From Pseudobdellovibrionaceae bacterium (lineage in GTDB: Bacteria > Bdellovibrionota > Bdellovibrionia > Bdellovibrionales > UBA1609), in the NCBI GenBank assembly GCA_030591685.1, contig JAUVAX010000005.1, positions 1 through 64,000 on the forward strand: a stretch of DNA of 64,000 nt, given 5' to 3'. Shown here piece after piece: positions 26,086 to 29,009 of the stretch. The position numbers were made by a program, and so were the translations under genes. The notes under the pieces are model-generated. The model did not search any database, was not told the DNA's origin, and saw nothing but the letters and a program-made list of their open reading frames with translations. Position 1 is the stretch's first letter. Every line of letters begins with the position of its first letter.

Positions 26086-27024
26086 ATGTTTAATATTGAT
26101 ATAATTTTTATATTTTTTGGCCTTCTGTTTATAACCCTTGTTGTATTTGGTATTTGGTTTTATATAAAAAAGCGGCCAAAGGCCATCCCCCCAAGAGATG
26201 CCTACCTCCCCCCTTTTAAAACACTCACCACAGGTAAGTTTAAGATCAACTATGTTCAGCAGGGCCAGGGCCCTGATTTAGTTTTGCTCCATGGGCTCGG
26301 CGCCTCGGTTTATATTTGGAGATTTATATTTAAATCCCTTGCTAAAAACTACAGGGTTACAGCTATTGATTTACCTGGGTTTGGCTCTTCAACAAAAGAC
26401 CCAACAGCAAAATATGGCCTTGATGAGCAAACAAATCGACTGATCGATATTTTAAACCAATTAAACATTCAAAGTCTTCAGTTTATCGGGAGCTCTATGG
26501 GCGGAGCACTGGCCCTGTGGATGGCTGTTAGGTGCCCCGAACGTATTAAAAATGTTATCGCCCTAGCCCCGGCAACAAACAGAAAACTTGTAAAAATAAG
26601 CCCTATGCCGTTAATGAAAATTGCACGTCAACTACATAGCTATGTGCTTGGAAAAAAGCTCATCGCATTTATTTGTAAGCTCATTTATTATAATGACTCT
26701 TTTGTTACCGACAAAGATCTGGATAACCATTTTTCGCCCTACAAGGGACAGCCCGAAGCCCTGCGCACCTTTATTTTAGCAACAGAGTTGATTACTGACA
26801 AAAGGCTACCCTTAGAGCTTAAAGCCGTTTCTTGCCCTGTTACTCTTGTTCGGGGTAGCAAGGATCTTATTGTGCCCCTTAGGTTTATGAATGAATTAAA
26901 TAAAACTATTCCGCATTGTCACCTCATAAAAATACCCAATTCGGGCCATCACCCTATGGAAGAAAGTCCTGGAGAATGTGTCAAAATACTGTATGAGAAC
27001 CTTCTTAAAGACCAAAGGTCTTAA
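26086..27024 (+). CDS. Membrane-anchored alpha/beta hydrolase
   Basis: This 312-residue protein has an N-terminal transmembrane anchor (residues ~4-27). The alpha/beta hydrolase domain carries the oxyanion loop LLHGLGAS, the nucleophile elbow GSSMGGA, the acid GSKDLIVP and the catalytic His in NSGHHPMEE, so the Ser-Asp-His triad is complete. Substrate is not predictable from sequence; esterase or lipase activity is typical. It follows the Cys-rich small gene by 5 bp. Confidence 0.85.
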   Translation: MFNIDIIFIFFGLLFITLVVFGIWFYIKKRPKAIPPRDAYLPPFKTLTTGKFKINYVQQGQGPDLVLLHGLGASVYIWRFIFKSLAKNYRVTAIDLPGFGSSTKDPTAKYGLDEQTNRLIDILNQLNIQSLQFIGSSMGGALALWMAVRCPERIKNVIALAPATNRKLVKISPMPLMKIARQLHSYVLGKKLIAFICKLIYYNDSFVTDKDLDNHFSPYKGQPEALRTFILATELITDKRLPLELKAVSCPVTLVRGSKDLIVPLRFMNELNKTIPHCHLIKIPNSGHHPMEESPGECVKILYENLLKDQRS

Positions 27025-27396
27025 TTTATTTTTTGACTGTTAATAAAAACTAGACACATCAAAGGTTTTGATTTCAAAATCAAAGTCTTAGGACCTAGAT
27101 AGTTCTTAAGGCCAAGTTTAGAGGGATATTTGACGTTTTAGTCAGAAGTCCTGTCAAGATCAACTCAACCTCTGTCGAAAGATTTAATGTAAGCAGTGCT
27201 GTTGCAGCCTCTTACATGAATAAGGGTGAAAGTATTTAACTGTTAATAAAGGAGGTTTCAAGGAAGATAACAAATCAAGGAATAGATAGGGAAAACTCCC
27301 TAAATAAATATGGCCAGGACGCCAACCCAATTATGGGAATTAACAAGGAGGTAAGTATGATTAGAGATTATAAATTTTAATTGAGAGGAATAAAAA
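27025..27396 (+). other. Long flagellin leader and promoter region
   Basis: These 372 bp carry a nested hairpin at 27188-27216 (TGTAAG/CTTACA outer stem, GCTG/CAGC inner stem), an AAAGGAGGT stretch near 27248, the seven-codon reading frame at 27357-27380 and the flagellin ribosome-binding site GAGAGGA. Two weak FliA-like elements (around 27154-27181 and 27263-27270) are present; neither is convincing, and no sigma-54 promoter is seen. Confidence 0.5.
27357..27380 (+). CDS. Possible seven-residue leader peptide upstream of flagellin
   Basis: ATG at 27357 encodes MIRDYKF then TAA. It is preceded 5 nt upstream by AAGGAGG, the best Shine-Dalgarno in this region and better than that of flagellin itself. 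The stop lies 16 nt before the flagellin ATG, so ribosomes translating it would occupy the flagellin initiation region. It could be a translational-coupling or attenuation device; chance is possible for so short a frame. Confidence 0.4.
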   Translation: MIRDYKF

Positions 27397-28230
27397 ATGG
27401 GATTCAGAGTTTCAACAAACATAGCCGCGATAAACGCGCAAAGAAATTTAAGCCAAGGTCAGTTAAGAATAAACTCAAGTTTAAGCAAACTAGCCAGTGG
27501 TAGTCGTATTAACAAAGCTGCCGACGATGCTGCCGGACTAGCTATCAGTGAAAACTTAAAGGGTCAAATTAGATCTACTCGTCAAGCCAACAGAAACGCC
27601 AACGATGGTATATCAATGGTGCAAGTGGCTGAGGGCGGACTTAATGAAATAGGAAACATCATTGTAAGACTCAGAGAACTAGGTATCCAAGCCGCTTCTG
27701 ACACCGTAGGTGATTCAGAGAGAAGCTTTGTGGATAAGGAAGTTCAACAGCTTAAAGAGGAAATCAATCGTATATCTAATGTAACAACCTGGGGTGAAAC
27801 AAAATTATTAGATGGCTCTAGCCCGACTTTTGATTTTCAGGTGGGTATATTTAATGATGAATTAAACGATAGAATCGGCTATGACGCTGGCGAAAACGCA
27901 GCGACATTAGATGATTTATCCCTAGGAAGTCTTGATTACTCTACTAAAGAAGGGGCTCAGGAGGCACTCTCTTTACTTGATGAATCGCAACTTAATGTAA
28001 ACGGAATGAGAGCCGGTCTTGGTGCATTACAAAACAGGCTTACATCTACAGTCAGTAACCTGCAAATTGCTGAAGAGAACCTTTCAGCTGCAAACAGTCG
28101 AATTCGTGATACGGATGTGGCCAATGCTTCTGCAGAACTCACAAAGAATAATATTTTATTACAAGCTGCAACATCAACTTTAGCTCAAGCCAATCAGTTT
28201 AATGCGATTGCCTTAAAGCTAATAGGATAA
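27397..28230 (+). CDS. fliC: Flagellin
   Basis: This 277-residue protein is the flagellar filament subunit. It has the conserved D0/D1 N-terminal region (NIAAINAQRNL, LASGSRINKAADDAAGLAIS) and C-terminal region (LSAANSRIRDTDVANASAEL, then ANQFNAIALKLI). The variable D2/D3 insert is nearly absent, as in short flagellins of Bdellovibrio, which carry several flagellin genes. GAGAGGA precedes the ATG. It is monocistronic, with a strong terminator behind it. Confidence 0.96.
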   Translation: MGFRVSTNIAAINAQRNLSQGQLRINSSLSKLASGSRINKAADDAAGLAISENLKGQIRSTRQANRNANDGISMVQVAEGGLNEIGNIIVRLRELGIQAASDTVGDSERSFVDKEVQQLKEEINRISNVTTWGETKLLDGSSPTFDFQVGIFNDELNDRIGYDAGENAATLDDLSLGSLDYSTKEGAQEALSLLDESQLNVNGMRAGLGALQNRLTSTVSNLQIAEENLSAANSRIRDTDVANASAELTKNNILLQAATSTLAQANQFNAIALKLIG

Positions 28231-28268
28231 CAGTTAAATAAACACACCCAATACTAAGTACGAGTACT

Positions 28269-28299
28269 GAGCCTAGTCCTAGACTAGGCTCTTTTTTTT
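28269..28299 (+). terminator. Rho-independent terminator after flagellin
   Basis: A 10-bp perfect stem GAGCCTAGTC/GACTAGGCTC with loop CTA is followed by eight T residues (28292-28299). Confidence 0.93.
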
Positions 28300-28400
28300 A
28301 TTTGATTTGCGTTAATTGAGATTTACACTTTAAATTATACCATTTACTGGATTATATTATATATGGAAACTTTTTAAAAAAGAAAAAGGGGTTAATTAGT

Positions 28401-29009
28401 ATGGCTAAAAATAAAAAAACAACAAAAAAAGCGGCTAAAAAAGTGACTAAAAAGAAAGCTGCCAAAAAGAAAGCTACTAAGAAAAAAGTTGCCAAAAAGA
28501 AAGCCACTAAGAAAAAAGTTGCCAAAAAGAAAGCCACTAAGAAAAAGGTTGCCAAAAAGAAAGCTACTAAGAAAAAGGTTGCCAAAAAGAAAGCTACTAA
28601 GAAAAAGGTTGCCAAAAAGAAAGCTACTAAGAAAAAGGTTGCCAAAAAGAAAGCCACTAAGGAAAAAGTTGCCAAGAAAAAGGCAACTAAAAAGAAAACT
28701 ACTAAAAAAAAGGCCATCAAACCCAGCGCGCCTGATTTTAATGACATTAAAAATTCCGACAGCAGCGTGACTCAAATAGCCTCTGCGAATTTATTTAAGG
28801 CTAAGGACACTAGGGAAACAGCCCCGACTGACATCATCGAGGAAATACCCCCTGAGAATGTTTTAGTTGAAGATGAGGAGCAAACAGCTTTTAACCTTGA
28901 TTCCCCTTCTGAGGACCTTGAGGATGACGACTTGAGCGATGAGCTTGATTTAGATAGCTACGATAATATTTCTGAGACCGATGACTCTGATGACGAGGGT
29001 TATTTTTAA
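28401..29009 (+). CDS. Histone H1-like Lys/Ala repeat protein with acidic tail
   Basis: Residues 1-110 are almost entirely Lys, Ala, Thr and Val, with seven tandem decapeptides of the type KATKKKVAKK, resembling eukaryotic H1 tails and bacterial Hc1/AlgP-like nucleoid proteins. Residues 120-202 are strongly acidic (for example DLEDDDLSDELDLD), so the chain is sharply bipolar. The basic half should bind DNA; the acidic half may self-inhibit or bind partners. The ATG has AAAGGGG upstream. Long Phe/Leu-rich open frames on the opposite strand are a by-product of the repeat. Confidence 0.8.
   Translation: MAKNKKTTKKAAKKVTKKKAAKKKATKKKVAKKKATKKKVAKKKATKKKVAKKKATKKKVAKKKATKKKVAKKKATKKKVAKKKATKEKVAKKKATKKKTTKKKAIKPSAPDFNDIKNSDSSVTQIASANLFKAKDTRETAPTDIIEEIPPENVLVEDEEQTAFNLDSPSEDLEDDDLSDELDLDSYDNISETDDSDDEGYF
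28470..28679 (+). repeat. 30-bp tandem repeat, seven units, in the H1-like gene
   Basis: Seven consecutive 30-bp units begin AAAGCYACTAAGAAAAARGTT. Units differ mainly at third codon positions (GCT/GCC, AAA/AAG); the last has GAA for AAA. Copy number is likely to vary between strains. Confidence 0.92.

Follow-up and report, generated by a model that had tools for sequence, protein, structure and literature searches.

In E. coli, CsrA acts on iraD only through a coupled short ORF, ORF27 (idlP), according to the available text of that report (PMC5574718). In the case of flagellins, the accessible portions of three papers describe a flaA leader with two GGA hexaloops in C. jejuni and a hag leader with one site over the Shine-Dalgarno (SD) sequence in B. 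subtilis (PMC7652899, PMC6529632, PMC4894983), and the coupling described in the excerpt of one of them is between fliW and csrA (PMC6529632). For the integron attI1 ORF-11, changes in its residues matter little in the part of the report at hand (PMC8876359), and the excerpted text of a review states that short ORFs may have no role other than the delivery of ribosomes (PMC12548453). Here we describe a mini-ORF in a flagellin leader that is probably a ribosome-loading switch for flagellum building.

The short frame in front of the flagellin gene

The window, the whole 64,000-nucleotide stretch of Pseudobdellovibrionaceae DNA that was analysed, contains a flagellin gene preceded by the elements listed in Table 1. 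The initial annotation had pointed to a short leader frame with a perfect SD, and its letters proved exact: after the SD and a 5-nt spacer, the ATG at 27357-27359 is followed by the codons ATT AGA GAT TAT AAA TTT TAA. The distance of 16 nt between the mini-ORF stop and the flagellin ATG is also as claimed, and the SD of the flagellin itself, ending 7 nt 5' of its ATG, is indeed weaker than that of the leader. Around the leader SD, the near-invariant columns of the leader alignment (A2) are C-A, GGA and G. Peptides are written below without their stop.

Table 1. Positions in the window of the flagellin gene and of the elements upstream of it
Feature	Positions	Strand	Basis
Sigma28 (FliA)-type promoter, TCAAGA-N15-GTCGAAA	27154..27180	+	11/12 consensus bases
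Stem-loop of the initial annotation, at the predicted mRNA 5' end	27187..27217	+	minimum-energy fold; absent from centroid structure
GGA-rich stretch (GGA at 27251, 27262, 27279, 27290), candidate extra CsrA sites	27250..27302	+	
P1 hairpin TGGC-CAGGAC-GCCA, GGA in hexaloop, CsrA-type	27311..27324	+	covariation, 46 genera
P2 short hairpin CCCA-ATTA-TGGG	27326..27337	+	stems in relatives
Mini-ORF SD AAGGAGG, in ACAAGGAGGT; also candidate CsrA site	27345..27351	+	sequence; A2 columns
Mini-ORF, MIRDYKF	27357..27380	+	sequence and conservation in relatives
Flagellin weak SD, GAGAGGA	27383..27389	+	sequence
Flagellin, 277 aa	27397..28230	+	ORF; Pfam Flagellin_N 132.7 bits

The named relatives of the window flagellin are recorded as Bdellovibrionales and Bdellovibrionaceae. 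Its own genome (2.66 Mb in 98 contigs) contains nine Flagellin_N matches, the weakest of which, on contig C35, may be another filament-type protein. On the 3' side of the gene, positions 28401-29009 encode a Lys/Ala-rich repeat protein with repeats like KKATKKKVA and an acidic tail, which we take to resemble bacterial histone-H1-like proteins.

We defined a closed mini-ORF as a frame of at least two codons within 110 nt upstream of a gene, with an SD core (GGAGG, AGGAG, GGAAGG or AAGGA) 4-11 nt before its ATG and an in-frame stop that extends at most 5 nt into the gene. Only one of the 53 window genes has such a frame, and this is the flagellin. When twelve further stretches of the same genome (219,075 bases) were added to the window, 5 of 228 genes passed, two of which are flagellins, that of the window and C22:298 (MQGG). 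The other three frames (12, 2 and 11 codons) have stops 36-68 nt from the gene or encode just two residues, and they look like chance.

Conservation of the frame in relatives

Orthologues were chosen by protein identity and independently of their leaders, giving 121 loci at 65-100% identity; the rows left out have 65-75% identity and are mostly further copies in genomes already sampled. L022, with 5 bases of upstream sequence, and L062, in which the start is missing, were also excluded. A mini-ORF with ATG was found in 93 of the 121 loci, and in 98 when GTG and TTG starts were counted, two of these 98 being stray frames (L013 at -110, counted as ATG although this locus has an additional TTG frame at -35, and L178, a TTG at -93). 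Taking one locus per genus, an SD core lies 22-75 nt upstream in 47 of 51 genera, and a closed ATG mini-ORF is present in 39 of 51 against 4.1 expected, with a maximum of 12 among 1000 shuffled sets; these figures, obtained from dinucleotide-preserving shuffles of the segment between the SD core and the flagellin ATG, serve as a guide, as the relatives are not independent. The short frame upstream of flagellins, whose conservation had been proposed as a check, is therefore strongly conserved. With GTG and TTG allowed and at least three codons required, the number rises to 44 of 51.

Stronger evidence than the shuffle figures is that length, reading frame and peptide all turn over while the frame stays closed. 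There are 43 different peptides among the 44 frames, 33 of which have 5-6 codons, and the mini-ORF starts occupy all three frames relative to the flagellin (21, 14 and 9). A function of the peptide sequence was rejected on this basis; because the peptide is not conserved, it is the act of translation that matters and not its product. Two arrangements can be distinguished. In the first one, the mini-ORF enters the flagellin SD, which is read GGA-GGA-stop (MNLNGG, MNINGG, MKFNGG). In the second one, an earlier stop leaves the flagellin SD in the gap, as in the window and in many genomes of g37, the genus that holds B. bacteriovorus (MKNKY). When the frame is open into the flagellin SD, it reads GGA-GGA-TAA/TAG/TGA in 21 of 23 cases, and the other two close before the gene in another frame. 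The mini-ORF ends 1-4 nt from the flagellin ATG in 17 of the 44 genera and 11-33 nt from it in 27; in none of the 44 does its stop strictly overlap the main start as in iraD. The proposal that a ribosome on the leader would cover the flagellin start agrees with the geometry, since the two ATGs are 16-54 nt apart in all cases except for the stray frame of L013.

The B. bacteriovorus locus (L133) has the same leader element with the mini-ORF MKNKY. Ten second copies in g37 (L162, L163, L171, L174, L177, L178, L179, L181, L189 and L198) lack the mini-ORF and four (L187, L191, L194 and L203) have it, the copies without it providing a natural comparison inside one cell. Those ten copies have a short leader directly after a sigma28-type promoter, with no mini-ORF near the gene. 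Beyond the orthologues, a closed mini-ORF was found in 2 of 27 paralogs of the own genome and of the family (0.6 expected) and in 8 of the 57 flagellins that are more distant (1.3 expected).

A second group of flagellins was sampled with C22:298 (L002) as query, plus 20 more upstream stretches. An ATG mini-ORF is present in 38 of its 50 loci, mostly as MQGG, and G060 contributes a member with MKHGG (L294). In 49 loci, counted with the corrected register for CAGGGAGG, start and stop occur together in 39, the start alone in 2, the stop alone in none and neither in 8 (Fisher p about 1e-7 for joint loss, uncorrected for relatedness). L283, the twin of L282, was left out of this table and of the hairpin counts, and L306 and perhaps L304, possibly of another leader type, were retained. 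In the frames with a start, the codon after GGAGGA is TAG in 21, TAA in 17 and TGA, TTA and CTT in one each. Exchange of stops only among stops, together with the joint loss of start and stop, is what selection on a reading frame predicts. These counts, together with the gene-wide ones and the shuffles, led us to reject a chance frame, and the fact that the same genomes have the arrangement in two groups of flagellins suggests repeated selection for it.

The SD of the second-group mini-ORF forms the hexaloop of a covarying hairpin, NATC-AAGGAG-GATN, with 76.1% of cells paired against 66.7% and a covariation score of 0.280 against 0.139 (0 of 500 shuffles as high). The cells changed on both sides are likewise above the shuffles (0 of 500 as high), and two of the five measures are at shuffle level: 352 of 500 shuffles reach the observed number of pairs with changes on both sides, and 235 of 500 reach that of further pair types.

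Other flagellins of these genomes carry other leaders. A third type, seen at L001 and at tandem neighbours in L266, L269, L272-L274, L276, L278 and L280, has the flagellin's own SD inside TTCTTC-A[AC]GGAG-GAGGAA, where a hexaloop hairpin is possible by eye, and such a layout would fit a start blocked directly by CsrA. Different conserved blocks, again by eye, precede L004, L005, L063-L065 and L090, L092, L100, L104 and L106 (CCAACGTGT/CCAACATGT and GGGTACAGCAAATTCCTGCC).

A covariance model of the leader gave 102 matches in 101 of the 140 genomes of the order. For 92 of them, the contig also offered a flagellin coordinate for comparison, and 90 of these end no more than 3 nt from the flagellin ATG; of the other two, one ends 29 nt before the ATG and one lies at a flagellin match whose first 65 residues are unaligned. 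In the own genome only the window locus matches (next E 2.6). Over 368 genomes of the phylum, 105 match. Five leader matches fall outside the order, one in the same class and four elsewhere in the phylum, and all five precede a flagellin with a mini-ORF by eye (MNGE, MMGG, MNGG, MNGG and MNGG), a sample that is not independent because the model includes the mini-ORF region. The matches span at least three classes' worth and reach no further than one phylum. Over many genera, this natural bacterial mini-ORF is evidently retained because it is translated and irrespective of the peptide.

Leader structure and putative control by CsrA and FliW

The promoter form common to the relatives, CCTGTCAAGA-N14/15-CCCGAA, lies upstream of the leader and resembles the FliA consensus of B. 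bacteriovorus, TTAAG-N16-CCGATA, in the available text of its publication (PMC3627812). It scores 10-12 of 12 in 40 of 51 genera against 5 of 51 shuffled upstreams, although the pattern alone is not rare in the window (7 matches with at most two mismatches, 7.5 expected). As this conserved sigma28-type promoter is located just upstream, the hairpin at 27187-27217 falls at the predicted mRNA 5' end. The initial annotation had combined a hairpin at 27188-27216 with the short frame into translational control of the filament protein. The conservation of the short frame lends good support to the putative control through its translation. The hairpin is real in the minimum-energy fold, but it marks the predicted mRNA 5' end and is not the conserved control element; the conserved hairpin is the one at 27311-27324. 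The 5'-end stems are moderately favoured in relatives: their mean z is -1.1, and 11 of 38 rank among the lowest 5% of shuffles.

The whole leader folds no better than shuffles (z -0.58), and RNAalifold found zero pairs on the gappy leader alignment A2, so the hairpins were tested on short ungapped blocks. Blocks A1 and A3 were picked by the best consensus match with a GGA required, A1 keeping 46 of 51 genera, and hence the invariance of GGA in both is a selection effect. In A1 (46 genera), the general form of P1, GGC-NNGGAN-GCC, has 93.5% of cells paired against 89.0% in shuffles, consensus matching also favouring pairs. All three pairs show changes on both sides, and a control slid by +3 scores higher covariation (0.203 against 0.146) at 68% paired cells. 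The P2 segment, from P1 to the leader SD, folds a stem in 42 of 44 genera, with a mean of -7.15 kcal/mol against -4.24 after shuffling and 15 of the 44 within the lowest 5% of shuffles, the P2 of the window itself being unexceptional (rank 42 of 200); as this segment ends at the SD core, the result is uninformative on the SD itself. GGA occurs 5.45 times per leader compared to 2.80 in shuffles (51 genera), and a further hairpin is predicted at 27287-27302 within the GGA-rich stretch. An Rfam search of 26900-28400 gave three matches with E of 0.44-0.96, all below cut-offs and none over 27154-27396 on the + strand.

In the own genome, csrA (75 aa, C35:69278) and fliW (179 aa, C35:69697) adjoin each other. 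Of the 140 genomes of the order, 117 have a FliW match and 131 a CsrA match. A close flagellin is absent from 16 genomes, of which 13 also have no FliW match and 14 keep CsrA, so that FliW goes with the flagellin and CsrA is independent of it. Several genomes of the same family, of 1.2-2.0 Mb, have neither a close flagellin nor a FliW match and keep CsrA (G001, G012, G013, G016, G019, G021, G028-G030, G130 and G136).

On balance, we lean towards a reading in which the mini-ORF feeds ribosomes to the flagellin by coupling and is itself gated by CsrA, countered by FliW. The sigma28-type promoter would produce a flagellin mRNA whose leader is about 210 nt long, and the mini-ORF (4-9 codons in relatives) close to the 3' end of this leader would be translated from its strong SD. 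Termination would take place 0-33 nt ahead of the flagellin ATG, in many cases within the flagellin SD read as Gly-Gly-stop, and the ribosome would be passed to the flagellin start by translational coupling. CsrA on the GGA hexaloop of P1 and on the GGA of the mini-ORF SD would block loading of the mini-ORF and hence of the flagellin too, until exported flagellin frees FliW, which would remove CsrA and let synthesis resume. We infer translation of the mini-ORF, the positive sign of the coupling, CsrA binding and relief by FliW from the features described above. Coupling to assembly had been suggested as an example by the initial annotation; CsrA-FliW, which it did not name, is a concrete candidate for it because of the GGA hexaloop hairpins, the GGA in the leader SD and the neighbouring csrA and fliW. 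The leader also has the GGA layout of CsrA-FliW-type control, with one GGA in a hexaloop and one over an SD, here that of the mini-ORF, and the flagellin SD holds a GGA as well. To the wider proposal, that CsrA gates a throw-away mini-ORF in a leader widespread in Bdellovibrionota, with flagellin made mainly by handed-over ribosomes and the FliW-flagellin feedback acting one ORF upstream, we give an even chance.

Several observations count against this account. The flagellin SD shows no sign of being hidden (mean unpaired probability 0.52, vs 0.57 for the leader SD), and a hidden SD is thus unsupported as the reason for coupling. Furthermore, this SD, often ACGGAGG, looks strong enough alone in most genera, and the representatives of 7 of the 51 genera have no mini-ORF even with GTG and TTG allowed. 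The gaps of 11-33 nt have to be set against the synthetic boost, abolished by 12 inserted nt in the accessible text of that work (PMC13255528). Finally, 9 of the 101 genomes with the leader have no FliW match and 7 have no CsrA match; eight of the former are 54-88% complete and the ninth reaches 95% in an assembly of about 550 contigs, and those without CsrA are also 54-88% complete.

The mini-ORF could instead act negatively, its ribosomes sitting at the strong SD over the flagellin start as an occluding decoy, with or without CsrA. The two starts are indeed too close for two initiating ribosomes, each with a footprint of about 30 nt, and in the window the leader SD is the stronger one. However, a mere decoy needs no stop, whereas the stops are retained close ahead of the flagellin ATG, in many cases in its SD, which favours hand-over, and flagellin is usually made in bulk; we consider this alternative unlikely. 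Translation of the mini-ORF might otherwise serve mainly to shield the leader, for mRNA stability or to keep the region open. Such a role would be independent of the peptide, as observed, and a parked ribosome would protect an A-rich leader in a highly transcribed gene class, but the closeness of the stop to the flagellin ATG would be left unexplained, and we hold it to be improbable. It is more doubtful still that the purine-rich motifs owe their conservation to a role as CsrA sites or SDs alone, with the frame as a by-product: no letters of the leader are better conserved than the GGA motifs, yet with the SD core fixed ATG and stop exceed shuffles about tenfold, start and stop are lost together, and the stops vary only among TAA, TAG and TGA in 39 of 41 started frames. 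A classical leader peptide for attenuation or stalling, sensing something through its sequence, might be evoked by a short frame before a regulated gene but hardly deserves credence: it is already contradicted by the diversity of the peptides, and the room of at most 33 nt between stop and gene is too little for a terminator. The near-constant MQGG of the second group follows from the SD it contains.

With this element, two questions become testable, namely the minimum length of an ORF able to feed its neighbour by reinitiation and the possibility that an upstream ORF mediates the feedback of CsrA-FliW on flagellin. As the swimming attack phase of these predators depends on flagella, the leader is a candidate post-transcriptional handle on that phase, of which a promoter map exists for B. 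bacteriovorus, according to the available text (PMC3627812).

Comparison with described systems

The available text on iraD/ORF27 offers the closest parallel (PMC5574718). In both, a short ORF upstream brings its own SD, which is overlaid by a CsrA site (here a candidate one), its stop is close to the main start, and the leader contains further GGA sites. On the other hand, ORF27 is 27 codons long and ends in a stop that overlaps the start of iraD, whereas the frames described here have 4-9 codons and no overlap; the iraD SD is hidden by structure, unlike the flagellin SD; and here the gene is a flagellin and the element is conserved over a phylum.

With B. subtilis hag and C. jejuni flaA the locus shares a GGA-bearing flagellin leader and the presence of csrA and fliW, but in those systems CsrA acts directly on the flagellin leader or SD, with no mini-ORF mentioned in the portions of the papers at hand (PMC7652899, PMC6529632, PMC4894983). 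Like the mini-ORF, the attI1 ORF-11 is very short (11 codons), has a good SD and raises translation of the next gene by coupling; it differs in serving SD-less cassettes in mobile elements, and CsrA sites are not described in the available part of that work (PMC8876359). The synthetic nfORF/HESP designs, as far as the accessible text goes, also place a short ORF for a nonsense peptide, with a strong internal RBS by its stop, directly ahead of a gene, like the GGA-GGA-stop found here, but they are engineered in E. coli, and their boost is gone at 12 inserted nt between stop and ATG (PMC13255528).

Our search of open-licence PubMed Central, whose coverage leaves out most subscription papers, found no publication dealing with mini-ORFs in flagellin leaders. 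Each half of the arrangement has precedent in the excerpts cited, CsrA gating in iraD/ORF27 and CsrA-FliW control in hag and flaA on one side, and peptide-independent boosting by ORF-11 and nfORF on the other. What would be new is their combination, CsrA-FliW control of flagellin joined to coupling from a short ORF.
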